Source: Pigoraptor vietnamica (taxonomy: Eukaryota > Opisthokonta > Filasterea). From it: a DNA stretch of 52,259 bases. The notes beneath the pieces are model-generated. The model was not told the origin of the DNA, made no database searches, and saw only the letters and a list, made by a program, of their open reading frames with translations. Location: the NCBI GenBank assembly GCA_943704525.1, contig CALSCQ010000342.1:1-52259 (forward strand), given 5' to 3'. The number at the start of each line of letters is the position of its first letter. Position 1 is the stretch's first letter. Of this stretch, positions 24,101-46,370 are shown in pieces. The translations under genes were made by a program, and so were the position numbers.

Positions 24101-25618
24101 GAAGACGGGCGCAATGTGGAGAGGGGGCTTGGTGAGGCACACGAGGTCGCACCCGATGCCGCTGTCAATCATGCGCTGCTTCGTCACGTTCGTCAGGTTC
24201 GCGTCCACCTCGTAAGCACCGGCGCCAGCGGAGACGACCACGATCATCTGCCCCGTGCGCTCAAAGTTGCGGTCGATGTAGTGCCGATCGAACGCGTTCA
24301 GGGCGAGGTTGATCGCCTCGAGAAAGTTGGCGCGCATGGACGACGAGTTGCGCCCGCGGGGCTCCGACGCAGCCGCCGATGTCGCCGCGGCGCAGTTGAT
24401 CGTCGAAGGGTACTTTGCAATCTCCCGCTTGAGCTGAACGAGGGCGCCCGTCCAGTCGGCGCGCGTCTCGTGGTGTATGGCGACAGTGTAAAAGTCCTCG
24501 TACACCTGTCCCGTCGTGTCCTGCTGCAGGGACGATTGGCGCTCCGCGGCAAAGTCGGCGAGGGAGAACGAATCGTAGTACGTCCGAGAGAAGAGGATGA
24601 TCGAGACGTCGTGGTTGCACTTGAGCTCGCGCCACCGCGCAAACAGCTCGCTGAGGAACCCGTCCACCAGCCGCTCGCAGTGGAGGTCGCCGTCCATGCT
24701 AAACTCCCACATCTCCGCGCTCATCTGCAAGAATATGTAGAACTGCGCGCTGCACGACCGAAAGACGACCTTCGTCCGCTCCGAGATCAGCCCGCTCGTC
24801 ACGCGCGCCCCGTCCTTCCACAGCTCGGCGACCTGCGCGCGCACGCCGGCGAACGTGACCTTCTTCGTCGGGTACGCGCACGAGTTCATGAGCGTCGCCT
24901 TGAGCCGCCACATGTCGCTGCGCCCGATGTACTGGTCCTTGAAAAACAACTCGACCATGTCGAGCGAGATGATGTCGGGATCGACGCGCTGCACGGCGAC
25001 CTCGCCGCGGTTCTGGAGCTTGAAGACGTCGGCGATGAGGCGATCGACGCTGATTTGCCCACCGGCAGCTGCGTGCGTAATAAATGCAATCAGCATCCAC
25101 AAAGAACAATGCCGTGAAATTTTTTTAAGTGATTGGTCAACGCGCAGAGTGACACTGCGAGGCACTCGCCAAGACGCACTTTTCAGTTGCTTGCCGGCAG
25201 CGAGCGACTTGTGCTGCACTTCGACGACAAGCCGTCTGCGCGCACACATTAAAGCACGTTCAACAGTCGGCTTCGCGAGGACGTCAGAGGACACTCCACA
25301 CACTCACGTCTCTGGCCTGTCGGGGTGAGAGATCTCGAGGAAGTCCCCCGCTTTGATGCCAGGCATGACGTCCTGGTTGAGCACAAGCTCCTCCTCTGCG
25401 TCGTAGAAACAGCGGCTTTAATCCACGGAGCTGCACCGACCCACACCCACACACTTCACTACTTGCCCCTCGAACAGAGACAGACAAGGACGCACGCCGT
25501 GCACAGCTCACAACACGCCATGTCCACATGCGCGCGCACAACACGCACCATTTTTGTAGTAATTGGGCTCGTGGATCCACAGCTTGAGGCGCGGCGGTCC
25601 CTGCACCTTGGCGGCCAT
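18193..25618 (-). CDS. DEPDC5: IML1/DEPDC5, GATOR1 subunit
   Basis: GATOR1 is the GTPase-activating complex for RagA/B that restrains mTORC1 when amino acids are scarce. Nine exons: 25618-25549, 25395-25308, 25235-25180, 25068-about 23475, 23291-23199, 23073-23008, 22853-22762, 22582-22399 and 22297-18193. The total is about 2115 residues against 1603 in human; the excess is Gly/Ala/Ser/Pro-rich linker in the last exon. Landmarks are DMVELFFKDQYIGRSDMWRL, VVFRSCSAQFYIFLQMS and MWEF in exon 4, and SNRRRWSHIFPVG and PGSLPLTTDYFP in exon 9. A DEP domain (about residues 1290-1380) runs from VIVGAMQHRFYGV through FVGRECVDWML to FQDGAFLYVFKH. The C-terminal domain begins near REWLVVHYDAFYDPSRGHH. 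The exon 4 donor is uncertain by 5 nt (23480 or 23475; the latter keeps frame with 23291). Confidence 0.94.
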
Positions 25619-26221: not shown

Positions 26222-29200
26222 ATGGGGAAGGATGTGGTCACCGACGAGGACAAGGCCCTTGCCGAGGCGTGCAAGGAGAAGGGGAACAAGCTGTTTCAGG
26301 GTGCGGGGCGCGGAATTGCACTGAATTCCTCTGTCGTCTCTCCCAATTTTTTTTTTTTTTTTTTTTTTTATATTCATCCGGTGTGCATCTCGCCAGACTG
26401 TGCGCGTCATCGGATGGGTACCAAAATGTCTTTGTGTGTATTGATTCGCGAACTCTGAGTTGTGTATTGAATCGCGAACTCTGGACTGAGTGGCTATCCG
26501 TTGTAACCCGCAGAGAAGCGGTTTGACAAGGCCGTAGAGGAGTACACCAAGGCCATCATTTTCAACCCGGACGTCCCTGCGTACTATGCCAACCGCGCGT
26601 TTGCGTACCTCCGCGTGGAGAGCTTTGGGTATGCGTTGCAGGATGCGACGAAGGCGATCGAAATGGACAAGACGTACATCAAGGTGTGTGCATATGTCCG
26701 AGGGATGTGTGGCAAACTTGTATGCACACTTGTCTAAGCGTCCGCTCTGTGATTACTGCGAAGGCGTACTACCGACGTGCGTCTGCGTACATGGCGCTGG
26801 GCAAGTTCAAGGAAAGCCTCCGGGACTTCAAGACGGTGGGTTTGCGTGATTCGTGAGTCATGGCGTTGTTTGCAACCGCAGGAAGTAAAGCTTGGGAGCG
26901 GAGCAGACGGAATAGAATCTCCCTTGTGTGTGTGTGGTTGCGCGTGTTCGGCCGAAATTATGGGTCGCTTCCGTGTGGCGTTTTGGTTCGATGAAAGACG
27001 GGCTTGCGCTCTCGCGTCGTCTGTTCGCGAGTTGAGCGCCCTGTCGCTGTCGTGCAGGTGGTGAAGTTCGCTCCCAACGACCACGACGCGAACCTGAAGC
27101 TCAAGGAGTGCGAGAAGATTGTCAAGCGCATCGCCTTTGAGAAGGCCATTGCCACCGACGACAAGAAGTCGGTTATTGACATGGCCGAAGTGGATGCGAT
27201 GGGTGCGTCGGCGTGTTTTTGTGGCCGTGAGCGCCGCTCACTCTGTCGTCGTTTTATTTTTTTTTTATTTTTTTATTTTTTGCTAATTCCATGTCGGCTG
27301 CAGCAAGCTTTAGAATAGTGCAGCTTGTGCGCATCGATTGCCGCTCTGTCTGCGCGATGTCTGAGGCTTCTTGCTCCTTCGTTTTTTGTAACACGCAGTG
27401 GTGGAGCCCGACTACGACGGCCCCCATCTCGGCGAGAACGTGACGGTCGAATTCGTGGCGGAGCTCCTTGAGCACTACCGCAAGGAGAAGAAGCTTCACC
27501 GCAAGTATGCCTTCAAGGTGCGTCCTCTCTCACTGGCAGCGTCACGTGCACACGCGCTCGAACACGTGCGGAAAATCCGAAATGCGCGGGTGTTTGGGAT
27601 TGCGCTCGAACTTGCGCTCAAACTGTGGAATGCCTGAGAGGGGACGGGTGTGCCCGAACACGGACGGAATTACAAAGTGCCGAGTGGAAATGGTTTTTTG
27701 CGAATCGATTTTTTCAAAAGCGCGCAAATCGGCCCTTGGTCAACGCCTTCCCGCTCTTTCCCCACGCGCAGATTCTCCTCAAAGCGCGCGAGCTGATGAT
27801 GAGCCTCCCTTCGCTCGTCGACGTGTCGTTCCCCGAGGACGGCAAGTTTACGATTTGCGGCGACATTCACGGCCAGTTTTACGACCTGCTCAACATTTTC
27901 AAGCTCAACGGAGTGCCTTCCAGGGAAAACCCTTACATATCCGACCATGTCCGTCAGCACGCCCACGCGCACGCGTCCACGACCACTCACACCCACACCC
28001 ACACACTCTTTCTTCCGCCGCTGTCGTCCCTTGTTTGAACCGCCCAGGCAATCTCTCATTCCTTGACTATGCGCCCCAATTCCGCGTTGTCCCTTTCTCG
28101 CTCGATCTGATCGCGCGCATGTGCACATGTTCAACGGCGACTTTGTGGACCGCGGCTCGTTCTCCGTCGAGTGCATCTTCACGCTCCTCTCCTTCAAGCT
28201 GCTCTACCCGAACCACTTCTTCATGAACCGCGGGAACCACGAGAGCGACAACATGAACAAGATGTACGGCTTCGACGGCGAGACAAAGCACAAGTATCCG
28301 CCCGCGTTGCCGGACCTATCCTTTTTCGTCCATGGCTCGTTCATAGACTTTCTAATTTGGTGCGGACTGGTCGATGGCTTTGTCAGAGGACTGTTTGCGT
28401 GTTTTGTTATCCTTCACTCTGCACCGCGCCTTCAGGTACAACGAGAAGATGGTCTCTATTTTCCACGAAGTGTTCAACTGGCTGCCGCTGGCCCATTGCA
28501 TCAACAAGCGTGTGCTGGTGGGTTGAGCGGCTGGACATGTGAAACCCTCAGCCTCAGTGCGACCCGGCCAGTCGATTGCGCACAACTGCAGGCTGTGTAA
28601 TGCGTGTGGCGTGCGGTGTATCGTGTGTACGTTGGGGACGGTGCGGTACGTTGCTTGCGTGCGAGTGGCTACGATCCATGGCTCACACGGGCACCTTTTG
28701 CAGGTGATGCACGGCGGACTGTTCAGCGCCGACAACGTCACCCTTGATGACATTCGCAAGATCGACCGCTTCAGGGAACCCCCCGAGTCCGGTACGTGGC
28801 GACCTCGTGTTCGTCTGCACACAGTGCACTTTGCGAGATGTTTTTAACTCCGTGCGCCCAGACTAACAACCCGTTTGCCTGTCACCAACATGTGCACGCC
28901 GATTTATTGCCGACCATTCTCATCTATTCCTTCTGTTCAGGCCTCATGTGCGAGTTGCTGTGGTCGGATCCGCAGCCGCAGCCGGGCCGGGCGCCCAGCA
29001 AGCGCGGCGTCGGCATTCACTTTGGCCCCGACGTCACGAAGCGTTTCTGCGAACTCAACGGTCTCGGTACGTGTCTGCTGTGATTGTGTGCGCCCATATA
29101 CTTTACGTGCCGTTCTGTATCTCTCTATTTGTTCGGCCTGTGTCTTCGTCGATTTGCCGCTTACGTTGACACCTGTCCAGACTACATTGTGCGGAGCCAC

Positions 29201-29658
29201 GAGGTGAAGGACAAGGGCTACGAGGAGATGCACGACGGCCGGTGCTTGACGGTGTTCTCGGCGCCGAACTATTGGTGAGACTGCATGTTCCCTCTCTCTT
29301 TTGTTGTCGTCCCGCCTTCCGAGACACGCATCTTATGCTTCTTGTTTGCGTTTAACTGAATCGCTGCCGTTTTCTCTCTCGTTTTTGCCCCGTGCAGCGA
29401 CCAAATGGGCAATAAGGGCGCATTCATCACGATGACGTCCGACATGAAGCCCAACTTCACGTCCTTCGATTGCGTGGTGAGTGCGCGTGCGACCAAATTG
29501 TGGAGGTCAAACGCCGCCACCACATGTTGTCTTGGCGCTTTGGTACCGTCTCCCTCACCCTTCTTCCTCACCCTTCGCCTCCACCCGTCTCCTCTACGCA
29601 GCCGCACCCCAACGTCCGACCGATGGCGTACGCCGGAAACTTCGGCATGTTCATGTGA
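26222..29658 (+). CDS. PPP5C: Protein phosphatase 5 (TPR-PPP serine/threonine phosphatase)
   Basis: Thirteen exons join in phase to give 480 residues (human 499): 26222-26300, 26514-26683, 26764-26835, 27058-27202, 27399-27517, 27772-27936, 28127-28293, 28436-28517, 28704-28791, 28941-29066, 29181-29274, 29398-29476 and 29602-29658. Three N-terminal TPRs (about residues 10-125) would bind the Hsp90 C-terminus and hold the enzyme inactive. The PPP catalytic motifs are intact: GDIHG (225-229), GDFVDRG (254-260) and RGNHE (285-289), with [18 protein letters not shown] and [16 protein letters not shown] downstream. The C-terminus [14 protein letters not shown] fits PP5. The introns at 27937-28126 and 28294-28435 look U12-type. 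Intron 1 holds a T tract at 26347-26369. Confidence 0.95.
27937..28126 (+). other. Candidate AT-AC (U12-type) intron in PP5
   Basis: The family sequence requires NPY(I/M)FNGDFVDRG across this gap, and no GT-AG pair delivers it. An intron starting ATATCC and ending GTGCAC gives NPY|MFNGD in phase 0. A perfect U12 branch-site match TTCCTTGAC lies at 28059-28067, but 60 nt from the 3' end, farther than the usual 10-20. A weaker TCTGATC with its A at 28110 has normal spacing. Confidence 0.6.
28294..28435 (+). other. Candidate GT-AG U12-type intron in PP5
   Basis: The donor is GTATCC, the U12 consensus, unlike the GTGAGT/GTGCGT/GTACGT donors elsewhere in the window. A branch-like ATCCTTCAC lies at 28409-28417, with its A 19 nt before the 3' splice site. 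Flanking exons join in phase 2 to give HKYNEKM. Confidence 0.65.
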
Positions 29659-30028
29659 GAATGTCTCGTCGCCTGCATTTGCTTGCAGGGCGAGCGCCAG
29701 CGTGCGTGCGCGTGTCCCGCGTTGCGGCTTGTTCATTCTTCCTCGAGCGCGGAACTGCTCGGTGCTGGTCTCTGCGGTTCCATTCCTCCTTTGCGTGTGG
29801 CGGCGGCGGCGGAAGTGCGGCTGTGTCTTTGCGCGTGCGTGCGAGTGGCTTGCTTTACGTGTGATTGTAGTAGCCCTCGTGGACGGTGGGCGATGGCCTG
29901 TTATGAAAAACAGGCTTACAAGAAGGGTGTGCGGAGTTCAAAATACATTGTCTCTCGTTCCAGTCGGATGGGTCCTGCCCGTTCCGGGTGAAACAGCTCG
30001 CAACCGCGAGCACACGTCGCCCGCCATT
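29659..30028. other. Convergent spacer, nothing recognised
   Basis: A 370-bp spacer between the PP5 and DHODH stop codons. No repeat or RNA gene is visible. Confidence 0.6.
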
Positions 30029-31621
30029 TCACCAAAGCGACCACCCCCGCCGCAGCGGCTTCTCTTCGGCGGCGCCCTTCGCACCAGGGGGGAGTGGATT
30101 GTCCACACCGACCGCCTGCGCAACCGACACAAAGCCGTCGCGCTTGAGGAGCGCCGCGAGCTCGTCCTTGGTCTCTCGGAGGAGGCGTGGGCCCTGACGA
30201 GTGGAAATTGGGGGAAGAAGTGGGTATCGCGCACACAATTTGACGGAGACTAACAGACGACCCAATGTGAACGAGCATGTCGCGACAAACGAAAAGAGAG
30301 AGAGCGCACCTGCAGTGAAAACGCCGTGTAGAACTGAACGAGGCTCGCGCCGAGGCGAATCTTGCGGTACGCGTCCTCTCCGCTCTCCACGCCGCCCACA
30401 CCAATAATCGGAATGCGACCGGCCGTGAGCCGATACATTTCAGCGAGGGCACTGTCCGCGAGCGGGCGAAGCGGGCGCCCACTTAGCCCACCCGTCTCTC
30501 CCTTGTGCACGCTCTTCAGGTGCTCCGGGCGCGCAATCGTCGTGTTCGACACGATAAGGCCGTCCACGCCGCACGACAGCGCCACAGCGGCCACGTCCTT
30601 CATATCCTCTTGGTTGAGGTCGGGCGCTATCTTAACGAGCAGCGGCGGAGGGCGACGATTCGACTGCTCGACAATCGTCGCGCGCGCTTCCTGCACGCGG
30701 CGCAGGATCGCCGTGAGCTCCTCGCGGCCCTGGAGCACGCGCAGGCCCGGCGTGTTGGGCGACGAGACGTTGACGACAATGTAGTCGGCGTGGCCACCGA
30801 GTTCGAGGACGCCCGCCGCGTAATCTGCAGCAGCATCAGTGCTCGTCTTATTTTTGCCGAGGTTGATCCCAAGCACCGTATCCGCGCGCGCGTTGGCGTC
30901 CGCAGCACGCTGTACGAGACGCTCCTTGACAAGCGCGTGGCCGTCGCTGTTGAAGCCGTAGCGGTTAATCACGGCGCCGTCGTCGAGGAGGCGAAAGACG
31001 CGCGGGCGTGCGTTGCCTGGCTGCGGCTGCGCCGATATATCGAAAACAGGCGTAAGAGCATGCGCCACGCGTCAGTGCGGCGATGATATCTGCGACAATT
31101 TCAGCGCACCTGCGGGGTCACACTGCCGATTTCGACAAATCCAAAGCCCATGGCGCCCATTGCGTCGATGGCCTCGGCGTGCTTGTCAAAACCCGCCGCC
31201 AAACCGACGGGATTGCGGAAGGGCAGTCCCCACACAGTCGTCCGCTGCACGCACCGTAAATTAACAAACACATGGCGCTCGTTGAAAAATGACGGCCGGA
31301 ACACTACATGAGCACGCACACGCAAGTCATGGGAGTCTCCAAGTGAATGGTGTAACACGCTCGAAATCATTTCCCTGGCGCGTTACAGAAACACGCAACA
31401 CGCACCAGGACAGGGTCATCCTCCTGCTTGTCCCTCGGCGACAGTCCCCACGACGCCAGGACGATGGCGAGTCGGTGCGAGCGCTCGGGGTCGAGCAGGC
31501 GCAGGGCGGGCATCACGACGTGAGGATACAGCTTGGTGCGCGTGTCCGACAGTGAAAACAGAGTCATCGCAATCGCACCGGCGCCGACATACGACGCCAC
31601 GCGCCGCCCCGTGAACGCCAT
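30029..31621 (-). CDS. DHODH: Dihydroorotate dehydrogenase, mitochondrial class 2
   Basis: This enzyme catalyses the fourth step of pyrimidine synthesis, oxidising dihydroorotate with FMN and passing electrons to ubiquinone. Four exons, 31621-31406, 31244-31110, 31026-30310 and 30193-30029, join in phase to give 410 residues. The N-terminus has an Arg pair, then a hydrophobic segment (about residues 10-25) typical of the inner-membrane anchor. Class 2 signatures follow: [69 protein letters not shown] and [12 protein letters not shown] with the catalytic Ser, [28 protein letters not shown] and [15 protein letters not shown]. Nothing is missing. The gene is divergent from the next gene, which is also probably mitochondrial. 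Confidence 0.96.
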
Positions 31622-32115: not shown

Positions 32116-35100
32116 ATGACCTCGCTTGTGCGGCACTGCGTGCGGGCGCGGCGCCCACCCGCCATCCACGCGGGTGCGGTGGGGCGCTGCACGCGTGCGC
32201 TGCCGCGGAGTCCGCCACTGGCATGCGCAGGCCATGTGCGCGCGCCGTCGTGGTCCCCCACAAGTCCGTGGTTGTCCGTATGGGACCGGGGCGGCCCGCC
32301 GCTGTCCATCACGCTGCGACGCATGCACACGCTTTCGGGCGGCGTCGACGCGGGGACGGCGCAGGTGGCGGACGACGACGGCAGTGTAACGGACGTCGCA
32401 GAGGCCACTTCTTCGTCTTCTAGAAAGCACTCTGGGCCACGAAGTGCTAGGAGGGCCGCGAGACAGTCGGTGGATTCGTTACTCCGAAGTGGCGCGGTGG
32501 AGGACACGGAGGCGGGGACGGCTGAACATGGGGCGGTCGGCGCGACCCATGACGTTGTAGATGTGCCGCGCGTCGCACGAGCCGGCGCGCGTTCGTCGGC
32601 CGCAGAGACGCGCAACCCGTTTTCCAAGTTTTTCGACATCGAAGTGTTTGAGCATCCAGACGATTCGTTGCCCGCTCTTGCGGAGTATTCCGAAATGGCG
32701 ACTTCTTTGGGGTACGGCGACGCAGAGGCGCTCACATACGTCCTCGCAATGCTGGAGCGGCGGCTGGGCGAACTCACGAAGATTCGCACGCGCCGCGACA
32801 AGCACTTCTGGCTGATGGGGTGGACGCCGGAGACATTCGACGAGGCTCGCGCGGCGGTGGCCGTTATGCAGCGTCTCAGAACGGAGCGCACGGTGTACCG
32901 CGCCGTTCGCGACGCCGTGAACGTGCACGTGCGGAGGCGCGGCGAGGTGACCGAAGAGATGGTGGGCGCGTACGCGTGGCTCATGGAATTTTTCGGGGAC
33001 GGCGTGAGCGCGGGGGACCTCGCCTTCGAATTCATCGGGCGGTCGTCGCGGTTTGAGATGCGCGCCGTTGTTAATCGCGTGATGCGTGCGCTGGAGGCGA
33101 ACGCGGACGGCTACCCACTGGCGACCATGCGCGCTTTCTTTGAGGACGCGGCGGCGCATCCCGACCCGAGCATGGTTGCGGCGTGCATCGGTTCGTACAT
33201 GACGGCGCTCTGCCGCACGCGCGACTACGAGGGCTGCCTGAACGTGTACCGTTACGCGAAGGAGAGGAAGGTGCGGCTACCCGGGCGGGCCATACAGGTG
33301 GCAATTCGCGCGTCGTATTGGTCTGGCCGCCCCGAGTTTGTTGACGCGCTTGCCGACGCGGCGATGTTGTCGGACCGGCCGTTTTGGCGGAGATACCATC
33401 AGAAGCTGAACATGAGCACGTATGCGCACAGCCGCGTGAGCGTCGAACATCTTGTGAACATCCTCTACGCGATGGAAGAGACTGCAAGGAGAGACTCTAT
33501 TCTATGGCACAATGGAAATCTCGTCGCCGTGGCGCAGGATGGGCATTATTTTGCGCACGTGGCGAACCTCGTGCTCCGTGCGGCGCCCGCGTGTCGTTCG
33601 GACGCGGACAGGGAGGCGATCCTGACCGTCCTGCGCGACTTTGGCATCCCGCCCCCGGCGATCCTGTGGCACGAGTTGCTGAACGCCGCCGTGCGGGAGC
33701 ATTGGGAGGACTGCAAGGTGGAGCTGCCTTCCGATCTCTTCGCCTCGCTCGTCCCGGTCGTGGACGTGGTGGGTCGGAACGATGTGGACGTGGTGGGTCG
33801 GAACGATGTCGACGCCGGTGTGACCCGTGCGGGGCGTGGAAAGGCCGTGGCCGCCAAGCCGCCCAAGGCGGTGTGGGGCCCACGTACAGTGGCTCCGGTC
33901 GCCGAAGAACCGTTGGAAGCGACCCCGCCGCCCGTGCTATTCGAAGATCCGGAGCCGCCGATTGAGTGGGCGGACGGGATCGAGGATGCACGGGAAGGGC
34001 TGGAGAAGCGGGTCACGTCGCCGCTCGCGCGCGATCGCGTGCATGCGGCGTCTACGCATATCCTCTCGCTGCTGGCGGCGCGGGGACTGGAGCCCGATTT
34101 CGAGTTTGTGTTTCAGCTGTTCGCGTACGGCGTGCTGTCGCACAGCGGCCTCGTGGCGTTCGTGGGCGGCGTGGACGAGCCCCACCGCACCACGCTGCTC
34201 CTGCGCTTTTTCCACAGTCACGCGTTCGGCGGCAGCATTCAGAAGGTGAACCTCGTCGGGAGCTTGCTGGAGGCGTTCCCTGACTACGTTCCGCAGCAGG
34301 CGATTGTCGACCGCCTCCTGGCGATTGGGCAACATGACGTGGGGACGCAGCGGGCGGCCCTGCGCGTGCTCTATCTAATGGCGGTGAAGGGGGTGCCTCT
34401 CTCCCACCAAAACCTCGTCGATATGCTGAACCTCTGCAGGTCGCAGAAGACGGTCGTGGCCGCGCGGCTCGTCTACGGGAAGATCGCGGAGCACTTTAGG
34501 CACACCGCCGAGACGCTCGCTCTCGCCGTGCAGTGCAACTCGCTGGCTCGCATTCTCCGTCCCTTCGAAACGACGGCGCCGGAGAGGCTCGCCTTCGTCT
34601 CGGACATTGTGCTGGACCTCGTGCGGCTCGAAATCAGTCCGACGGCGCGGGTCTTCAACGCGCTTGTCGAATTTCTCGTAGTGAACCGCCGCGTGGACTG
34701 TGCTGTGCGCATGATCAACCGCGTCCGCGGCGTGAAGGACGAGGCGGTGTGGGCGAAGCGTGTGGAGGACGACACGTTTGCAGCGGTCGTCGACATTGCT
34801 TGCGCCCTCCCGCCACCCCCGGGCTTTCCCAACGCGGAGACGTTCGAGTCGATGGCGGTTGCGTGCGCGACTTCGGAGGACAGGGCGCGGCTGATGCAGC
34901 TGATGCAGGAGAACGGAGTGCTGCCGAGCGGTCGCCTGGCGTACCCTCTGCTCTGCGCGGGGCTGTACGAGTTTTTCGTGGACCCGAGCGCGCGTTTCGT
35001 CGACGGCGAGTGCGTGCGGAGGGCTGAGGAGCTCGCGGACGAGCTGGTCAACAAGCTGGGCATTCCCATCACGGAGGGCGACATCGAGCGCCTCGCGACG

Positions 35101-35712
35101 GGACGTGCCTCTAGTTCGCGCGCCCTCCCGCTCACGCTCCTCCCTATCGCCGACGTCGCGCGTGTACGACTGGGCAACCACACGCTCGGGAGGGTCATAT
35201 TTCTCCTTGCTCGCCGTGGTCACGAGACGGAGGCGCTTGCAACCTTCGAGGCCGTTGTCCGTAACAAGTTTGGCAACTACCACGGCGCCGCGTCGGTCAT
35301 TTTGGGCGGCTTCCGTGCGGCCGTCGCGTTTCGCGACCGCCACTTGAGGAAAGAGCTGCGCAAGCGTGTGCTGGACGCCGCCATGGCGACGAAGCCGAAC
35401 GTGCGAATTGTCCTTTCGATGTACGCGCAGGCCGCCGTGGAGGCAAAGGATCCCGACGCGATTGCGGAGGTCATCGAACTCATGAGGTCGCTCGGTATCG
35501 AGGTGCAGCGGGACGTGTACGAGGAGTACGTGTCGCCGGCCCCCTCTCGAGTGTGGAAATTTGACATTCAACTCCAGGAGCGCTTCCGAATGCACCGCGA
35601 GGGCCAGGGACTGCTCAGGCAGGCGCTGTTTGGCGTCGAGCCCGAACATTATGGCGACCCCAACCCGCCTGTCGACGCGTGGAGTGTCGCGAGGGACGAG
35701 GAGGACAATTAG
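32116..35712 (+). CDS. Large helical-repeat (PPR-like) protein, probably mitochondrial
   Basis: An uninterrupted reading frame of 1198 residues from ATG 32116; a TTG two codons upstream is not needed. The first 70 residues are rich in Arg, Ala, Ser and Pro and almost free of acidic residues, like a mitochondrial presequence. The body is strongly helical with segments in the style of pentatricopeptide repeats, for example YMTALCRTRDYEGCLNVYRY and ARVFNALVEFLVVNRRVDCA and VIFLLARRGHETEALATFEA. PPR proteins bind organellar RNA, so a role in mitochondrial RNA processing or translation is a fair guess. A 24-nt direct repeat near 33760-33808 codes VDVVGRND twice. The gene has no intron, unlike nearly all its neighbours. 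I cannot name an orthologue. Confidence 0.7.
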   Translation: MTSLVRHCVRARRPPAIHAGAVGRCTRALPRSPPLACAGHVRAPSWSPTSPWLSVWDRGGPPLSITLRRMHTLSGGVDAGTAQVADDDGSVTDVAEATSSSSRKHSGPRSARRAARQSVDSLLRSGAVEDTEAGTAEHGAVGATHDVVDVPRVARAGARSSAAETRNPFSKFFDIEVFEHPDDSLPALAEYSEMATSLGYGDAEALTYVLAMLERRLGELTKIRTRRDKHFWLMGWTPETFDEARAAVAVMQRLRTERTVYRAVRDAVNVHVRRRGEVTEEMVGAYAWLMEFFGDGVSAGDLAFEFIGRSSRFEMRAVVNRVMRALEANADGYPLATMRAFFEDAAAHPDPSMVAACIGSYMTALCRTRDYEGCLNVYRYAKERKVRLPGRAIQVAIRASYWSGRPEFVDALADAAMLSDRPFWRRYHQKLNMSTYAHSRVSVEHLVNILYAMEETARRDSILWHNGNLVAVAQDGHYFAHVANLVLRAAPACRSDADREAILTVLRDFGIPPPAILWHELLNAAVREHWEDCKVELPSDLFASLVPVVDVVGRNDVDVVGRNDVDAGVTRAGRGKAVAAKPPKAVWGPRTVAPVAEEPLEATPPPVLFEDPEPPIEWADGIEDAREGLEKRVTSPLARDRVHAASTHILSLLAARGLEPDFEFVFQLFAYGVLSHSGLVAFVGGVDEPHRTTLLLRFFHSHAFGGSIQKVNLVGSLLEAFPDYVPQQAIVDRLLAIGQHDVGTQRAALRVLYLMAVKGVPLSHQNLVDMLNLCRSQKTVVAARLVYGKIAEHFRHTAETLALAVQCNSLARILRPFETTAPERLAFVSDIVLDLVRLEISPTARVFNALVEFLVVNRRVDCAVRMINRVRGVKDEAVWAKRVEDDTFAAVVDIACALPPPPGFPNAETFESMAVACATSEDRARLMQLMQENGVLPSGRLAYPLLCAGLYEFFVDPSARFVDGECVRRAEELADELVNKLGIPITEGDIERLATGRASSSRALPLTLLPIADVARVRLGNHTLGRVIFLLARRGHETEALATFEAVVRNKFGNYHGAASVILGGFRAAVAFRDRHLRKELRKRVLDAAMATKPNVRIVLSMYAQAAVEAKDPDAIAEVIELMRSLGIEVQRDVYEEYVSPAPSRVWKFDIQLQERFRMHREGQGLLRQALFGVEPEHYGDPNPPVDAWSVARDEEDN

Positions 35713-36043
35713 ACTTTGCGGGTTGCGTGTTTTGTGGTTTTTTTTGTTTTTGTTTTTGTGAAGGGTCTATGTAATTAGCTTGCGCGTGCGTGCTTTTGCG
35801 TTGCGTTGCGCGTCGTGCGTGCGTTTGCGTTGCGTGTCCTTGTGAGGGATGAAGTGGGCCCTCTGGATGTAAACAACGGTCCCGCGCCAACTGGCTTGGA
35901 CGGGTCCATGTCTTGACGTGTGCCCAATCTTGCATGAGTACGTACAATTGTTAACTTCATTCCTTTTTTCTTTTTGGTTTGCCCTAAATGCCACTACGGC
36001 ACTTCGTATAGCGTATCGCCGATTAGCGAGGCGCGCCAGCGTG
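35713..36043. other. Convergent spacer, nothing recognised
   Basis: This 331-bp spacer lies between the repeat-protein stop and the fusion gene stop. It contains a GTTTTTT-rich stretch (about 35738-35760) and TGCGTGCGTT repeats (35785-35840), but no gene. Confidence 0.6.
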
Positions 36044-39000
36044 CTACCACTCGAGCGACTCTCGCGGCGACGGCACTTCGGCGTCTGCGAAGGCGGCGAT
36101 TTCGGCCACGTGGTCCTTGAAGTTGGAGCGCCCGACAAACACCGTCCCCATTTTGCCGCCATGAGGACCGACGATGAACGTGCGCGCCTTCGGAATGCCG
36201 CACTCGCCATACGCCTGCACGCAACGACACAGATATGAGAAGCGCGTGCACAGGGGGCAATTTCATGCTGTCGCACCCACACAGCTGCTTTCCGCACGCA
36301 CGCACATACATTCACGCGCACACAAAAATTCAATCTCAAAGCGCTGAACGAAATTAAGTACGCACCTTGATGTCCGTAAGCGTGTTGCCGTACGCCGCAA
36401 ACACGTTGATCCCAATGTCCTGCAGGCCGCGTATGTAGTCCCTCTTAAACACGCCGACCGACGGGTATAGGGGAAGCGTGGGCACGTGCGTGCGCGTGTG
36501 GTGGATGGCCCCCGGGGGAAAACCGTGGCGCACCAGCCACATGCGCGTGAGATTGTAGAAGGAGCCCGCGCGGCCACTGAGGTAGAGCGGCAGGTAGCCC
36601 TTCGATGCCCACATGCGCACAAGAGAAACGGCGCCCTGGAACGATGCGATTGTTTCGTCAGCCAGACACAAAATAGTGAGGGGTTGTGAGGGGCAAATGT
36701 GCGCACACGCGCGCGCGTATGCTTAGTGTATGCCTGTGCAATATGCGTGGTGTGCATGTGTAGCAGCGCACCTTTCGGAGCTTGACGTCGTGGCTGACGT
36801 TGATCGAATCCTTGACGGCCTGCTGGACGACCTCCTCATCGCCCACCGTCAGCGTGCCGTCAATGTCATACACGATCACTCCAGCGCCTGCGAGACGCGC
36901 GCACGTGTGAGCAATTGAAGGAACCGAGATAATGAATAGCAGCAAAAAAACAAAACAAAGAGCACGCACGCACCCTACAACATAGGGTAGCCGGCAAGCC
37001 CCACCTTTTCTCAAGAGGAAGACGGACCCAGCCGCAAACGAGTGGTCATGAAGCGCGACCATTCGCACGCGCACGTGACCAGGACTGGACGTCAGAGCAT
37101 CCGGCAGCGAGACGACGACACGCCTGCGCGCGCCATGAGAATAAGAACGCGAGTGTGACAGTGGTAATCAACGAGCGAATGCAAGCGGACACAGCGTCAC
37201 GACGACGTATCGGAGAAGGGTGGGGATGGAATGCATGTAAGGAGCAAGTTGCCAACGAGATGAAGCGTCGCGACTCACCCGCTCGCGTTTGTTCTGCTCA
37301 CGCCCACGGACGACCATGGCTGCGGCGCCTGCGTCGCTGGCTGCACGAACACTTCGACGTTTTCCGTCGCCATCGCAGTCGTGAAGTACTCAAACAGGCC
37401 CTCCACGTACACACTCTTGTGGCAGTCCTGCGCACAGCAGCAGAGGAAGAAGTGTGAAACGCGTTGGTTGAAATACAAAATTGAATAAAATGGAAGATGA
37501 TCACGCCGGGGATCGAACCCACGTCCTCTATGGCGGGCGCAGTCGAGCACAGCGATCCGTCATCGTTGATGACGACGAGGTTGTGGAAGGCGCAGCACGA
37601 GTGGTTGGCCTGGGAGAGTGACGTCATCACGCCCTTGAATCCTCCGAGGGGGGCGCCGGGCGGTACGAAGGGTTCGGGACCAAGCGACAGCCCGCGGTCG
37701 ACGGTGCCGTTCAGAAACCTGCGCGTAAGTGAGCAATGTCGGATCAGCATAGATCACAGACGTGCCCATCGACTTCGCTAGCGGAGGGAACAAGCGGTCG
37801 CGTCACGTGAGCGCTGTGGTCGAGAGGAGAGAGGCATGTGGAAGAAAAGGACGGTGGTAGCTGCTCACCGGTACTCGAGCACGAGGCGGAGGCTTCCCGT
37901 CAACCGAACGCCGACGCTCTTGTCGCGCCACGGGATGAGCGGCACCCACTGCGCGCGATGGAGGCACAGGGTTGAGAATCGGCCAACACACACACTTAAC
38001 CGATGAGGCAATATCATCAGAACACATGCGCGCAGTAAACAATAACAGCGCGACTGCTTCGTCGTCGTCAAATGTCCTACCTTGTCCGTGCGCACGCCCG
38101 CTTCAATGGCCGACACGGGGAGGCGCATTCGCCCAAGAAAGTCCTTCTCGGGGTCGAAATTAGCGAGCCTGCAAGGGCGCGTCGCAGCCGTAAGTCAGTT
38201 GCGCGGAATGGGGACGAACGGCGTGTGTGTGTGTGTGTGTGTACAGGTGTGCGCACACGCGCGCAACCACCCACTTGATCCTGCGGTCGAGGACGGTGAT
38301 GGAGATCATGGCGTTGCTGCGCGTGACAAAGAAGTGGAACTCCTCGCCGAACACAGGGCTCCGCGTCTTCCGCACGACGCGCGACTTGAAGACTTCGTGA
38401 TCGCACTCGACGATGAGATAGGGGTCGCACGAGTCGTCCGTGTAGAGGTCACGGCCTTCGAGCACCGTCACGCGCAGGTGCCCGACGAACGAAGAGTTGT
38501 CAGTCGCAACAGAGGGACGGCGACTGTGCGTTAATAGTGTCAGTATGAGAAATTGCACGCACTTGCACAGGCACATGCACGCACGCACGCACACACGCAC
38601 ACACAGACAGACACATACACGTATACATACACATATATACACCACAACGCCCATCGCACAACACCCACGGCAACACGTCCACAAACGACGAATCGAACGT
38701 CGACATCTGCAAGAGCGATCCCCGCGAAGACCCGCGCGTCACAGGCGTGTCCGGCAACGACCCAGAACTCGCCGCCGACGCCACAGCGCCCGACGCGGCT
38801 GTCATGTGATCGGCCGCCGATTTCGTAGTCATCTCGATGTAGTTGTGCACGGCGACACGCACGGCCGGCGACGTGGCCATCTCCCTCTTAAGCCACGCGC
38901 GCGCCCCCTCAATTGGCATCGCATTAATCTCGCCTGCTATCATCGCAAGCGCAGAGTCCACCGCAGTCGCCGTGATGCTGCCTTGCCGCGCCAGAAGCGA

Positions 39001-42000
39001 GCCAACGCGCGACGGCCTCTTGAACGACTCGGTCCGTTCGGGCACCGGGGAGAGCCCGGGAGACATTCGCGCGATAGCGCCCTCCGTGCCTCGCCGCGGC
39101 GGAATGCCGACGCTCGCGTCCGCGACAGCGTTGGCGAACGCCGCGTCCTGCTCGAGCGAGCCGACGTCGCTAGCGAGGCTCGCGATGGACTTTACGCTGG
39201 CCATGGATTGCGAGGCGCTGGGCGACGAGGACTCCGATATGTCGTCCACGGCGGTGGTGGCGCGCCCAGTGATGACGATGCGGCGCAACAGCGCGCGGAC
39301 TTCCTCGTCCGGAAGGAGATCGACCGCGGGGGAGTCGGCCGCGCTGGCGCTTCCAAGGTACGACATGGAGGACGTGATGCCAAAGCGATCGGAATCCTGC
39401 GGTAGGACGCGCGGTGTGAGGGCGGTCAGTGTTTGTGCGTGCGAGTGCAGGCACGTGCGTGAAAGTGCGTGCGAGTGCTTGCAAGCACATGCAGAGCTTG
39501 CATACAAGCCGTGCAAGTGCGTGCGAGTGCGCATGCGGAGCGACTGCCACACGTTCGCTTGCCTGCGCCAGTTTGTACAGGACGTCTTGGTCGCGGAAGT
39601 GCTTTCGCTTTCCGCTCGTTGGGCGGAACACACCCATCTCCATGAGTAGTTGGCCCACCTGACGATTGCGCGCACGCGTGAGTAACGGCGCGTAACAGGT
39701 TCCGCTAAAATGGACACGTCCCCTCCCGCAAACGCCTATTTCTAAGCACGACGTGCAAAAAGCTGCCTACTGCGCGCGTGTGACATTACTAGAGCAAAAA
39801 AAAAGGTTCTCTCTCCACCCGCTCACCCGCCACGCCTTGATCCGGTCGTCGGTCTTCAGGTAGAACATCAGCCAGTCGATGGCTTCGGAACCGGAAAACA
39901 CGCGCTCGCGGGCGCCGAGGCCGAGCACCTTTCGCTCCCGCATAGGCAAGCCCTGCACAAAGTCCGACGCAACCTGTTCCGCGCGCTCGGGCTGCGGTTG
40001 CGACGATGATGGCTGCACGTCAAAAGTCATGCGGTACACAGCCGCGCAGCAATCGCGCAAAAATTGCACATTCCGACTGTGAATCAACACGATGCGTACG
40101 ACGACGCACCGTAATCTCGGCGGCTGCATAGTCGGCCTGAAAGCGGTCCTTCTTCGCAAGGCGGAGCATCTTGGAGCGCCCCGCGAGAGAAACGTCAATG
40201 CGCGCGGGCGGTTGCAGCCACGGCTCACCGTCCACCTGTGCGCAGCAAGCGAGCACGTGTGAGACGCACACGTACACACACATTCACCTCGTACAAATAG
40301 AAGGGAAATAAAAAAGAAATTGAGAGGGAAGGATAGCAGAGGCACAGATGGGCACCTGCATGGGGAGGTTTTCGTCGACGACCGTCACGACGATGCGGCG
40401 CCCCTGTGCGATCCGCCGCCCGCTGCCGAGATGGGCCTGAATACGACCAATGTGGGACACGCCCTTGAGGCCGACCACCTGCAAAAGCCAAAACAAACCG
40501 CGGTCAGAAGAGAAGATGACAGCACACTCACGACCACGAAGAGCGATGAATTGCACACAAACAAGGCATATGGAGTTGGCACATACACGGCCCGTAGAGA
40601 AGTTCCGCGCAAACGGAGACAACTGCACAGACAACGGCACAAACAAAGGCAACGCCCACCTCGAGCAGGCCGTCGCCGAAGTCCTGCTCCGCGAACTCGT
40701 CCTGCGACGCGGCAACGCACAGAAGTGATATCAGCACATGCTATTTCCACACGTATTATAAACCCGTGCAATCACACGTGAACGTGCACATGTACACTCC
40801 ACATCCACATCTTACGAACAGACGCACATCGATACGCGACGCGGACCTGCTTCTTCGGTCCCCACGGGTCCGAGCCCCCGGCATAGCTCGGAATGTTGAG
40901 GAGTATCACGGCCTCGACGTCCGCGCCAAAGTCAATTCGCTTGTCGTCGACCTCGATGGCGACGCGCTGGTGAAGCGGTTTGTCGCTGCTCACCATGGCC
41001 TTGGCCGCGAAGGTGACGTACCACAACTTGTTCATAACCTGGGCAGATTGAGCTTGTGAGTGGGTGTGTATATGCGCGTGCAGTGAATGGATAAATTGTT
41101 TAGAGAGAAAAAGGAAAACTATCGTGACTATGCCATCGTCGCCTTTTGCAAAGTAACAAAGAATAGTTTCCGGACGAACCTGGTGCTTGAAGCGTTGCGG
41201 GTTCGATTCCCGCGACCGATGGAAGGAGAGCGCGATTTTTGCATCGACGCCAAAGCTGAGATAGTTGATCATGGTGAGTCGCTGCGGCATCGCTTCGTGC
41301 TGCGTCGTGGCGTGCGTCGTCGTTTCCGACATGGCAACCGTCCAGCGGTCCAGGTTCACGACGTCCGCACAGCACATCGTATAGAGAAGCTCAAGCATGT
41401 TGTGGGCCGCCTGAACAAACGCAAAGCAGGTGAAAGAAGGAGGCGAAAATGTTAAAGATATCCGACCCACGCGGACGTAACGACGTGTGCTGCGTCCGGG
41501 CATGCAGCGACAACGACACGGCACGCGACAAATAGCAGGCCGGACTGGACGGGGATGAGCGCCCACCTTGAGGGCCGGCGCACTCGCGCCCCAACCCATT
41601 ACGCGCGAGAGGTCGTTGCCCGTGCCGAGGGGCATGATGGCCACCGGAGGCTGCGCGTTACCGGCGTAGTCGATCTTCTGTATTTCGCTCAGCACCCAGC
41701 CCACAGTGCCGTCGCCGCCGCACGCGAGCACAAAGTGGTGGGGAACGTCCTTGAACTGCGCAGAAAAATGAGACTCACATCCGTAACTGGCAAGAGAAAC
41801 GAGGCTCGCACCAAAGATGGACACGACCGGCACACATCTGCCGTACCTGGAGCAGCCCGGACCGCGGACCGCCCTGCGCGAGGTCCCATATCTGGCACGG
41901 GTGGAGGCATTGCTCCAGTACCGCAATCACACGCGCGCCCTCTTGCCCGCCGGACCGCCGATTCACAAAGACGACGACCGGCCGCGAGTCCTGCGGCGCC

Positions 42001-43432
42001 CTTATTCCCCATTTCGTCTCGCCACCCTCCAACATCGACACGGCCGACTGCGGCAGCACCATCGGGTTGTACTGCACGGGAGTCATATCCTCGCGGCGCT
42101 CGTTCGCGGCGTCGCTGGCCGTTTGAGGGGGACACGGGTCGCTTCCGTGTTTTCGCCGGTCGTACTCGATCGTCTTTGGGCAGAAGGCGGCGGCGTTGAC
42201 CTTGCAGCGGAGGTGGCAGCGCATGTGGCAGTTCGCACACTCCTCGACCTGTGTCAGCCACATCATCTGCAGGCACACGTCGCACACGCCCGGCCGTATG
42301 TTGTCCATGTGGTGGAACATGTGTCCGTCCGGCGCAATGTCCAACACGAGGAATTCCTCCGCGTCGCTGAATCGGAACGTCGTCGCGTCGTCCGCAAACG
42401 GCACATCGCTGTCCCCCTTGTCGTCCACGGCGACAATCACTTTGCGATCGACCAACATACGACCAATCTGAGTCGCACGGTGCCGCGTGATGCCGAGGTG
42501 TGTCACGAGGTAATTTACCGCTTCCGTCCCTGCACGCACACGCACACGCACGCACACACGCATTGAAGCACGCACATAAGGTCAGTATGTGTCTACATGC
42601 CCAGTAGAAAGTCACGCATTCAGAGCGTGCGCACGCACCGGCAAACGCAGTGGACGACCCCTTCGCCGATCCCTTCGGCGTAAAGTGCGTCGTCATGAGC
42701 GTCTCAGCCTCCTTGTACAGGCCCTCCGGCACAAGCGCGTGCACCTCCAGCAACCCCGCCTTCGTCGTCGCAAGCATCAATCCCTCCCCAAGTGCGTCGG
42801 CTTCGGCACTCGCCGACTGTTGCGCGCCCTCGTCCGCCGTGTCCTCGTCCTCGTCGTCATCGGCATTTGGATCGGTCGCGACGACAGACGTTCGGAATTG
42901 GTTGTGCGCCTCTCTGAGAAGGCACGAGACGCAATTCAACACCACCGTTTGAGACAATTGAAGGGGCAGAGTTGTGCGATACGATAAGACACATACGACA
43001 CGCAGTTCAGCACACAGTTCAGCGCCACGGCATTGTGCGGCGAGACTCAGCGCCACGGCGTTGTGCGGCGAGACAGTTCAGCGCCACGAGAGACACATTT
43101 GAGCGCCACCGTTCGAGACAAATTGGCGGGATACGGAGCTGCTCTCTGTCGCACCTTTCGAGATTGAGCACGGCCACGGCCTTGTGCAGCTTCATGATGG
43201 CATCTTGGCCCTCGGATATCGAGTCAACAATCTGAATCACACGCGCCGATAATCAGCAAAAACGGCGACGACGACGACAACAACACATCCACAGTGCTTT
43301 GCTTCACCCCTCGCAGCATCTCACTACCTGGGCCAGTTTCTCGCTGGCAAGTGCATATGCTTCCTTGAGCAACGCCACTTCGTTGCGGAGGGCTGCGCAA
43401 CCCGCGCACTCGCCGGGCACAGCTCCGTCCAT
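36044..43432 (-). CDS. Multidomain DEP-C1-diacylglycerol kinase-DEP-C2-LNS2 fusion protein
   Basis: Twenty-two exons join in phase to 1496 residues: 43432-43328, 43231-43155, 42913-42639, 42529-41847, 41755-41567, 41410-41180, 41038-40847, 40701-40660, 40478-40356, 40235-40110, 40012-39827, 39658-39563, 39396-38669, 38523-38275, 38168-38081, 37948-37869, 37718-37523, 37427-37279, 37123-37005, 36887-36772, 36635-36366, 36214-36044. Domains: DEP (about 121-206); C1 zinc finger (His222, Cys235, 238, 250, 253, His258, Cys261, 269); DAG kinase (about 335-675; GGDGT 393-397, [13 protein letters not shown]); DEP (about 696-775); Ser-rich linker; C2 (about 1030-1156); LNS2 (about 1280-1496). LNS2 keeps DIDGT (1319-1323), Ser1370, Lys1414 and GN...D (1433-1438), as in lipin phosphatidate phosphatases. 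One enzyme would make phosphatidic acid, the other could remove it. Splice phase never breaks. The start follows a possible acceptor, so an upstream exon (near 43546, CKSCK) is possible. Confidence 0.85.
39397..39562 (-). other. Probable GC-AG intron in fusion gene
   Basis: The exon for the second DEP domain ends CAG followed by GCAAGC, the usual GC-donor context; the acceptor is CGCAG before GATTCC. An alternative GT donor 12 nt downstream also keeps frame and would add ASER, so the call is not certain. Confidence 0.5.
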
Positions 43433-44017
43433 CTGCACCGACATTACCCCAAATCATTACCTCAACGCACTTATGAATAATAAGGACATGCAACCGCACC
43501 GCAACATCGAGTCAACACTCCGAACTACAAAAACAAATGCGTACCTTGCAAGATTTGCACTGAGGCGCCGGATTGCGCAATCGGTATTCTCGTTGGAGAT
43601 GGGTGGTGTGAATACGTGCCGTTGACCATACAGCGGTCACGAGACCACCGGGCGCGAAAGAAATGGGGACCGCCCCACGCCGTTCGCGAGCGTACACGAG
43701 ATTCGCGCGCGCGTGCCGCGTCGTTTTGTCCAACTGCTGAAGAACGAGAAGCACCCCAGTGTCAGCATATCCTCAGCCAATCCGGATGCACGCGCAAATG
43801 ACGTCAACATTCAAATGACGATATGGAAAACTCTTGTTACGACGGATAAATTCCAGTTTACTCCAATGTTACGAGGAATTTACTCCGCGCAATCTTTGTT
43901 GACGTGGGGAACTTCAAGTCTCCCTCCCGGCACAAAAGTCCCTCGCTGTCGTTTGTCTTTTGGGGCTTCGTTTATTCGATCGAGACTAAGGCGCGAGTCA
44001 GCGTTAACCCTTGGAAG
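43433..44017. promoter_or_regulatory. Divergent fusion gene/cortactin promoter with CRE and CCAAT
   Basis: This 585-bp spacer contains a perfect CRE TGACGTCA at 43799-43806, a second TGACG at about 43818, and CCAAT at 43778-43782. The same pair of elements occurs in the VPS53/CFAP119 spacer. An open reading frame without an ATG runs through 43546-43760 on the minus strand and ends in a GTACGC donor; it may be an upstream exon of the fusion gene. Confidence 0.45.
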
Positions 44018-44513
44018 ATGTGGAAGGCCGATGCGGGCGCGAAGCTGAACGTCGCCAAGAGCGCGGACGACGACTGGGACACGGATGCTGACTATGTCGT
44101 ACGTGCCCCTCTTCGTGTTTGCGCATCCACTCGTGCCGTTATGCGCAGAGTGCGATCCATTCCGCGTTGATGGTCGCTGATGGGGGTTTCCCACGCGCGT
44201 GGTGCAGAACAATGTGTCAGAGCAGGAGCAGCGATGGGGCTCAAAGTCGATCCCAGGCTCCGGGAAGCAGGAGGCGACCAGCATGGCCGCGATCCGCGAG
44301 ACAACAAAGCAGGCGCACGAGTCGAAGGTGCAGGGTGAGTGCTGTCTGCATGAGTTGCAGTTGAAGCTGATGCACGTGCGAAAATGCGAAAACTGAATCG
44401 CGCATTTTGCGTGCGCCTGCAGAGGAGTACAAGTCAAAGTATCCACCGAGAGCGCGTTTGTCTGTGTATATTGTGTGCGTGAGACGGAGTGGCTGTGTAT
44501 GAGTGTGTGTGTG

Positions 44514-44563
<50 letters not shown>

Positions 44564-45497
44564 TGTTTGTCTGTGTGCGTGCGTCTCTCCAAACAGTGCG
44601 CAGTTTTGTCGAGTGTTGTCGCGAACACCTGTTGCACATATGAGCGACCCATTTCAACTTGGTGTGTGCAGCCCCACTTTACATGTTGTTGTGTCCTTCA
44701 ATCTGCCGTCTCTCCTCAGGGGCACATTCGCCGCTGGGTACGGTGGTCAGTTTGGTGTCATGGCGGACCGCATGGACAAGGTGAGTGAAGCACCTATCGA
44801 TTGCGCTCTTCCGCTTCGCTGTGCAAGGCTGTTGTGCTGTGGGTCAGTTTGTAATCGCACCGTCCCTCAACTCCCTTTTATCTTCCTCTCGAAGTCTGCC
44901 GTCGGCCACGACTACCAACACCAGAAGGAGCAGCACACGTCGACCAAGTTCAACCAGGGGTACGGCGGCACCCACGGCGTCATGACGGACCGCGTCGACA
45001 AGGTGCGCGGGGTGGCCTCGCGTGACTGTTTCGATATGCACGTCGTGTGTGGATTGGCGGACGCGTTCATGTGTGTTTGGAGCGGCGAATGCGTTCATGC
45101 TGTTATTCACTCTCCGCTTTTCGCAGTCTGCGCTCGGGTGGGACCACGTTGAGCAGTCGCAGCAGCAGAAGACGGCGGCGCCCGTGCAGGTCGATTCCGG
45201 CAAGGTGCGATCGCACACGCGCGCAGGGCCTTGTTGGGCTTGTGCCGTATCTTTTGGACCACCGGAGTTGTGCGGCTGAATTTGACCATATGCATAGTAG
45301 TTAGTGAGTGCGTCATTGGAGGGATCTCGGTACTGAATGTGTCGGGCAGTTGTGTTGACATCGAGAGGGCATGTCTGTCCACACAGGCCGGTTCGATCAA
45401 GGCCCGCTTCGAGTCGATGAAAAACAACGAGGAGGAGGAGCAGCGCAAGAAGATTGAGGCGGAGCGCGAGAAGAAGAAGCAGGAGCAGAAGTGGGTC

Positions 45498-45536
<39 letters not shown>

Positions 45537-46370
45537 GTGTGTGTGTGCGTGTGTGCGCGTGCGTGGGTGTGCGTGTGTGCGTGTGTATGTGTGCGTGTGT
45601 GCGTGTGTGTGCACCATACATCAGTGAGAGGTCATCGCTGCACTGGCGCACGTGCCTGACTCGGCGTCCTGTTGCAGGGAGGCGGCCGATCGTCAGCGTA
45701 AGGAACGCGAGGCGCAGGAGAAGAAGGAGGCGGAAGAGCGCGCGCGTGCCGACGCCGCCCGCAAGCAGCGCGAGGCCGACGAGGCAGCCGCCAGGCAGCG
45801 TGCAGAGGAGGAGGCTGCTGCGGCTGCTGCTGCTGCGGAGCCTGAGCCCGAGCCCGAGCCTGAGGCTGCCCCCGAGGCGGCTCCGGAGGTGCGTTGTGGG
45901 CGGTGACTTTAGGCGTCGTTGGGACGTTCATATTGTTGGCCTGCTGTTTTTCTGTTCCGTTCTTTTTGGCTTGTCGCGCGTTCATGCCCTTTGTGTAACT
46001 GAGAAATGCTCTCGCGCGAAATGTGCAGGAGAGTGGCGCGACGGGCTTCTCTGCGAAGGCCATCTACGATTACCAGGCCAACGGCGACGACGAGATCTCG
46101 TTTGACCCGGAGGAAATCATCACGAACATTCAAATTGTTGACGACGGTGCGTGCACGTTCGCCGTCTCTCGTTTCTCTCACTTTTCTCTCTCTCATTATT
46201 AAGAGTCGATTGGGGTTCAACCCCTATGACTGCCACGAACTGAGGTCGCTCCTTTTTCCTGTGGCATGCGACTTAACGTGTCTTGTGTTGTTTGTGCAGG
46301 CTGGTGGCAGGGCGAGGCCCGCGGGAAGTTCGGCCTCTTCCCGTCGAACTACGTCGAGCGCATCGACTGA
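44018..46370 (+). CDS. CTTN: Cortactin
   Basis: Cortactin binds Arp2/3 through an acidic N-terminus and F-actin through its repeats, and recruits partners by a C-terminal SH3 domain. Ten exons, 44018-44098, 44208-44334, 44423-44438, 44720-44780, 44895-45002, 45127-45204, 45387-45490, 45678-45888, 46029-46146 and 46300-46370, join in phase to give 324 residues. The N-terminus [15 protein letters not shown] and [11 protein letters not shown] matches the Arp2/3-binding DDW motif. [11 protein letters not shown] follows. Repeats read [46 protein letters not shown] and [10 protein letters not shown]: about two, against six and a half in mammals. A charged coiled coil and a Glu/Pro/Ala run precede the SH3 domain (about 269-322; [39 protein letters not shown]). 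Exon 3 is only 16 nt, and intron 3 looks U12-type. Confidence 0.95.
44423..44438 (+). other. 16-nt microexon of cortactin
   Basis: This exon encodes EYKS plus split codons on both sides. It has a normal CCTGCAG acceptor, and its donor is GTATCC. Both neighbouring exons need it to stay in frame. Confidence 0.7.
44439..44719 (+). other. Candidate GT-AG U12-type intron in cortactin, with (GT)n run
   Basis: The donor is GTATCC. A branch-like TCCTTCAA lies at 44694-44701, with its A about 19 nt from the acceptor CTCAG. The intron carries a (GT)n run of about 22 units at 44517-44561. Confidence 0.6.
45496..45612 (+). repeat. TG-rich tract in cortactin intron 7
   Basis: (TG)n with CG interruptions fills the intron right after the donor of the coiled-coil exon. 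Confidence 0.9.

Follow-up and report, generated by a model that had tools for sequence, protein, structure and literature searches.

The minus strand of contig CALSCQ010000342.1 of the filasterean Pigoraptor vietnamica (assembly GCA_943704525.1, 32.5 Mb in 1395 contigs, with a eukaryotic character apparent from introns and genes) holds a predicted gene in which a diacylglycerol (DAG) kinase is followed by an LNS2 domain. This gene lies at 36044..43444 of the window, the whole stretch of 52,259 nucleotides that was analysed and to which all positions refer. The region was read in the three minus-strand frames, spliced with a small purpose-written gene finder and then refined manually, which resulted in a model of 22 exons and 1496 residues with zero internal stops, running from an ATG at 43444 to a stop codon that ends at 36044. 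The predicted protein is ordered as DEP, C1, DAG kinase catalytic and accessory domains (DAGKc and DAGKa), DEP, linker, C2, beta-sandwich, and LNS2. An earlier note on this DNA had described a phase-clean frame of 22 exons and 1496 residues, which the rebuild on the minus strand bears out, and the domain order that it gave (DEP, C1, DAG kinase, DEP, C2, LNS2) was recovered by a Pfam search of the predicted protein. Its gene end at 36044 also stands; the start that it placed at 43432 is the second Met, and the rebuilt model begins at the ATG at 43444. Since the earlier model also has 1496 residues and starts at this second Met, it must differ by a few residues from the rebuilt one.

Exons 3-4 (41847..42913) encode the N-terminal DEP domain (residues 153-210), the C1 domain (226-274), and the start of the kinase domain. 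The DEP profile reaches 89.8 bits over two stretches in the whole protein, above its cut-off, and the N-terminal DEP scored alone gives 37.3 bits against a cut-off of 32.7. The C1 domain stays under its cut-off of 26.5 bits (19.4 bits in the whole protein, 25.7 alone), and its Cys/His spacing reads H-12-C-2-C-11-C-2-C-4-H-2-C-7-C, in which the third spacer is usually 13-14. The catalytic domain of the kinase (exons 4-5, 41567..42529, residues 340-444) carries a GGDGT motif (397), which we take to be the glycine-rich ATP site motif of DAG kinases, and a GTGND motif (428). It is followed in order by the accessory domain (exons 6-10, 40110..41410, residues 493-648), which covers profile positions 1-158 of 158, and both matches exceed their cut-offs (DAGK_cat, 76.2 bits; DAGK_acc, 173.8 bits). 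The second DEP domain (exons 11-12, 39563..39991, residues 699-769) matches positions 1-71 of the 72 in the profile across the exon junction, and precedes a Ser/Ala-rich linker of about 245 residues encoded by exon 13 (38660..39396), a stretch open in the coding frame only, as the other frames contain 6 and 4 stops. The C2 domain (exons 14-16, 37869..38523, residues 1032-1134) is complete (profile 1-104 of 104) and above its cut-off, with 64.5 bits. Exons 18-19 (37005..37427) encode a putative Ig-like beta-sandwich of the PITM type (residues 1234-1304), which is not among the domains given in the earlier note.

The LNS2 domain, of the HAD type, occupies exons 20-22 (36044..36887), with the motifs DIDGT (1319), LSGR (1369), VFKRDY (1412), and YGNTLTD (1432). 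The profile LNS2_PITM1-3 (PF24694) matches residues 1316-1456 with 85.8 bits (cut-off 27.7), and the profile LNS2 (PF08235) gives 40.2 bits (cut-off 32.3). The PITP and DDHD domains, which are found in PITPNM/Nir (RdgB) proteins, are not among the Pfam matches of the 1496-residue protein up to an E-value of 0.1, and the same holds for N-Lip (PF04571). The designation "lipin/LNS2" used in the earlier note has thus to be corrected, as the domain is of the PITPNM/Nir type by profile. Nevertheless, its lipin active site is predicted to be intact. This was assessed in a MAFFT alignment of five sequences, with Tt Pah2 as reference and with the roles of its residues taken from passages of PMC7066176, in which the Thr is the T of the DxDxT motif. 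The window protein agrees with Tt Pah2 at all eight active-site residues tested (D146, D148, T150, S191, R193, K244, N268, and D272), as does the LNS2 domain of the lipin encoded elsewhere in the same genome. In contrast, the LNS2 of the organism's own Nir gene has Ser at D146, T150, and N268, and PITPNM1 (9jtz) has Ser at these three positions plus Thr at S191. In other words, the two Nir sequences carry SIDGS and a Ser in place of the Mg-binding Asn, where the window protein has DIDGT and Asn; it also is free of the one-residue gap that both show in motif IV. The least certain position is K244, which adjoins a gapped stretch, although the same Lys is also matched in the HMMER alignment to 6tzy, together with the same D, D, T, S, R, N, and D.

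Judging from these residues, the LNS2 head looks catalytically alive, unlike the LNS2 of Nir proteins, which is regarded as a dead sensor of phosphatidic acid (PA). The earlier note had left open whether the domain tied to the kinase senses or hydrolyses PA, and this can now be sharpened: because the eight positions tested are intact, hydrolysis is favoured over sensing alone. It has therefore been proposed, with an even chance of being right, that on one chain the DAG kinase makes PA and a PITPNM-type LNS2 with a lipin/HAD site would turn it back to DAG. The chance that a DAG kinase and a PA phosphatase are both active on a single polypeptide, the phosphatase being a Nir-type LNS2 with retained catalysis, is put slightly below even.

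Under a different explanation, which is considered unlikely, there is one gene whose LNS2 acts as a mere PA sensor of the Nir kind. The protein would then be a self-recruiting kinase, with positive feedback or a product-gated tether in which the product of the kinase draws the protein to the membrane or keeps it there, and the catalytic-looking residues would be relics or would serve Mg-assisted binding. The profile scores agree with such a sensor, as does the best solved match, which is PITPNM1 (7.9e-23) and not lipin Pah2 (0.0057). Moreover, in passages of PMC12419160 and PMC7385082, Nir LNS2 domains are described as binding PA and are thought to be devoid of catalysis, and the former, dealing with PILS-Nir1, states that lipin features are preserved in them apart from the catalytic Asp and a further residue that coordinates Mg. 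However, the three residues missing in both Nir sequences are present here, and the retention of all eight positions at 27-31% identity would be unlikely after a loss of catalysis.

The proposed kinase/phosphatase requires that both sets of exons belong to one gene. Phase continuity by itself is weak proof of this. Within the ranges scanned, junction 12/13 offers 62 in-frame splice choices and junction 13/14 offers 40, and the choice of the model is the top one at two of the five junctions enumerated (16/17 and 17/18), ranking second at 12/13, third at 10/11, and eighth at 13/14. With so many in-frame options and such lower-ranked picks, the model may be off by between 1 and about 36 residues at the ends of exons 1, 7, 12, and 13 and at the start of exon 11. 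A first model of 1503 residues was dropped, as another donor for exon 14, used in the 1496-residue model, gives a C2 score of 64.5 bits instead of 61.2. By eye, CA/TG-rich stretches resembling microsatellites are seen in introns of the window, for example at 38560-38640.

A better argument for one gene than the continuity of the frame is that 13 of the 21 junctions are crossed by a match to Pfam or to PITPNM1. The PITPNM1 alignment itself covers residues 1240-1489, from exon 18 to exon 22. Together with splice-site scores and gene finding over the whole window, these domain matches support the conclusion that the kinase and LNS2 exons belong to one predicted gene, as the earlier note had read them. 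Gene finding with an intron-length penalty also places one gene at 36044-43444, but with 21 exons and 1639 residues and with several junctions unlike those of the model. Runs lacking this penalty were discarded, since they merged neighbours absurdly (2036-46196 and 33502-46129 each became one gene). Among six settings of the gene finder applied to the region, four keep the kinase and LNS2 in one gene. A high cost for opening a new gene yields a single gene in three of three settings, and a low cost splits the region in three of three (into 3, 5, and 6 genes), with exons 1-3 cut off every time.

The likeliest place for a break between two genes is intron 16 (37719..37868), and a tandem arrangement there, held to be improbable, would consist of a DEP-C1-DAG kinase-DEP-C2 gene that stops with a TGA at 37867 and a short gene for LNS2 that begins with an ATG at 37750. 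This stop lies 2 nt beyond the donor of exon 16 and the in-frame ATG 114 nt later, the C2 match is complete before junction 16/17, and zero domain matches cross it. (The table of stops and ATGs was built on the 1503-residue model and considered only ATGs upstream of the next exon, starts inside exons being unscored; at junction 9/10 it shows a stop and an ATG that abut, with 0 nt between them, where the accessory-domain match crosses by a few residues.) On the other hand, the sites of intron 16 are strong: among the sites of the gene strand, the donor comes 19th of 564 GT and the acceptor 7th of 297 AG by matrices trained on these same sites, the leave-one-out scores are 7.1 bits (donor) and 8.6 bits (acceptor), and the junction has the best in-frame score among its three options. 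Spacing also speaks against two genes. The penalised run over the window gave 31 predictions, 17 after removal of overlaps, and 15 of the 16 gaps between them measure 251-1236 bp; the remaining one, of 88 bp, falls within the calcineurin-like domain of a PP5-like gene that was falsely split, a case that serves as a control for over-splitting. The 114 nt at intron 16 are less than half of the smallest of those 15 gaps (251 bp), with the reservation that all these boundaries are unverified predictions.

Elsewhere in the genome, a separate lipin with N-Lip and LNS2 is found on contig C1368, where both PF04571 matches of the genome lie. The start of C1006 encodes PITP and a partial DDHD, and the end of C130 encodes the end of a DDHD and an LNS2 with SIDGS; these pieces seem to be one PITPNM/Nir gene split by contig ends. 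A second locus of the PITP family is present at C882:6805-8333, with an in-frame TAG in one matched stretch, perhaps an intron or a sign of a broken copy. Two further DAG kinase loci are located on C920 and C1231, and that on C920 also shows GGDGT and GTGND (read by eye). In profile searches of the genome contigs, matches to PF24694 are confined to C130 and C132, and those to PF08235 to C1368. The DAG kinase contigs C920 and C1231 are therefore devoid of an LNS2 match by these searches, in which each exon is scored on its own and short exons can be overlooked; the window gene itself was not recovered with PF08235. No light-harvesting proteins were recovered at an E-value of 0.001.

The presence of a lipin elsewhere in the genome is also what could be expected if both heads were active and the HAD head acted on another lipid phosphate (lyso-PA, ceramide-1-phosphate, or a phosphoinositide) or on a protein, a possibility that appears quite improbable. 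The LNS2 of the window protein is just 27% identical to the two lipins compared (Pah2 and that of its own genome), and other HAD phosphatases are matched weakly (APP1_cat, 0.0088; Acid_phosphat_B, 0.036). Nevertheless, its nearest relatives bind or hydrolyse PA, and the adjoining kinase should make PA. Finally, an assembly artefact or chimera setting two genes end to end is hardly credible: the assembly is fragmented and the Nir gene itself is apparently cut by contig ends, but the window holds zero Ns, and a chimeric join would have had to preserve the reading frame amid consecutive coding exons whose splice sites are usable.

Several observations weigh against a fused kinase and PA phosphatase. 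Regarding the gene, eight of the 21 junctions are not bridged by a domain match (1/2, 2/3, 5/6, 10/11, 12/13, 13/14, 16/17, and 17/18), 3/4 and 9/10 are bridged by no more than a few residues, and the donor scores are poor at 12/13 (a GC donor at the end of exon 12, 3.0 bits) and 13/14 (-2.1 bits). Two of the six gene-finder settings part the kinase from LNS2, with a break at 39767/39643, a junction that lies within the second DEP domain and is spanned by its Pfam match; in one of the two settings the frame is also broken at 40284/40283, between the accessory-domain exons 9 and 10. Regarding the protein, the N-Lip domain that is absent from its Pfam matches is described in a passage of PMC7066176 as required in lipins, the search score is nearer PITPNM1 than lipin Pah2 (0.0057 and 0.006), the PITM beta-sandwich (PF24695) scores 25.7 bits, under its cut-off of 27.7, and a candidate amphipathic helix ahead of it is of modest strength (94th-96th percentile for the windows that start at 1181-1184). 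Searches for relatives covered prokaryotic and viral contigs, with single-protein queries that find close relatives only: for LNS2, 65 pattern matches in prokaryotic contigs and 5 in viral ones left 0 confirmed, and for the kinase the single match in viral contigs was likewise not confirmed (0 of 1).

Other features of the window include the PP5-like gene mentioned above (PPP5/TPR plus a calcineurin-like phosphatase), located on the plus strand at 26222-31086 and cut by the gene finder at 28038/28127. On the minus strand, at 18193-25618, a predicted gene shows a strong IML1 match (PF12257, 3.4e-108) in its first 512 residues and presumably encodes a GATOR1/DEPDC5-like protein. Look-alikes of tRNA T-arms occur near 37500 and 41205, one intronic and one in an exon of the kinase accessory domain, and ARAGORN finds zero tRNA genes in the window.

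The fusion can be compared with known systems. With lipin/Pah enzymes (Tt Pah2, lipin 1-3, Pah1) it shares a HAD LNS2 whose active site reads DxDxT, S-R, K, N, and D, but it gives no N-Lip match, is nearer PITM by profile, and is fused to a DAG kinase. With PITPNM/Nir proteins it shares a PITM-type LNS2 following a candidate PITM-like beta-sandwich (here below cut-off), and differs from them in having no PITP or DDHD match. Like eukaryotic DAG kinases, it has DAGK_cat and DAGK_acc, GGDGT, GTGND, and a C1 domain; animal DAG kinases carry two or more C1 domains, whereas the window protein has a single one (below cut-off), together with two DEP domains, a C2, and an LNS2.

According to the proposed model, the product would be a peripheral membrane protein whose kinase head converts DAG into PA and whose LNS2 head converts PA into DAG. 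The C1, C2, and DEP domains would dock the protein on membranes with DAG, PA, or calcium-dependent signals, and may set which activity prevails; the heads may work together, alternate, or be set by calcium via C2. Such control would resemble that of PFK-2/FBPase-2, a two-headed sugar kinase/phosphatase that carries out opposing reactions on one chain, although this is a works-like analogy only, the proteins being unrelated and the lipid substrates here being predicted from sequence. We infer that there is one transcript, that both heads are active, that the phosphatase acts on PA, and that the two are under reciprocal control. With respect to docking, titles in the reference list of PMC7555651 report that the DEP domains of Epac1 and Dvl2 bind PA, and a recent review (PMC11555698) has proposed a PA/DAG substrate cycle with possible local signalling roles at membranes.

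Each of these domain families is already known, and what appears to be new is their combination. A fusion of a DAG kinase with LNS2 was not found in the open-licence literature (titles and starts of abstracts, among the matches listed), and if both activities are true, this would be, to our knowledge, the first known built-in PA/DAG switch. Since PA and DAG are opposing lipid signals, a two-headed enzyme would make the idea of local cycling testable with one gene. An apparently catalytic LNS2 of the Nir type also bears on the origin of the Nir PA sensor, because one genome contains a Nir LNS2 that lacks catalytic residues, a lipin, and a domain that looks intermediate. If the LNS2 of the window protein is indeed an active phosphatase, this would suggest that animal Nir proteins derived their dead PA sensor from a working phosphatase.

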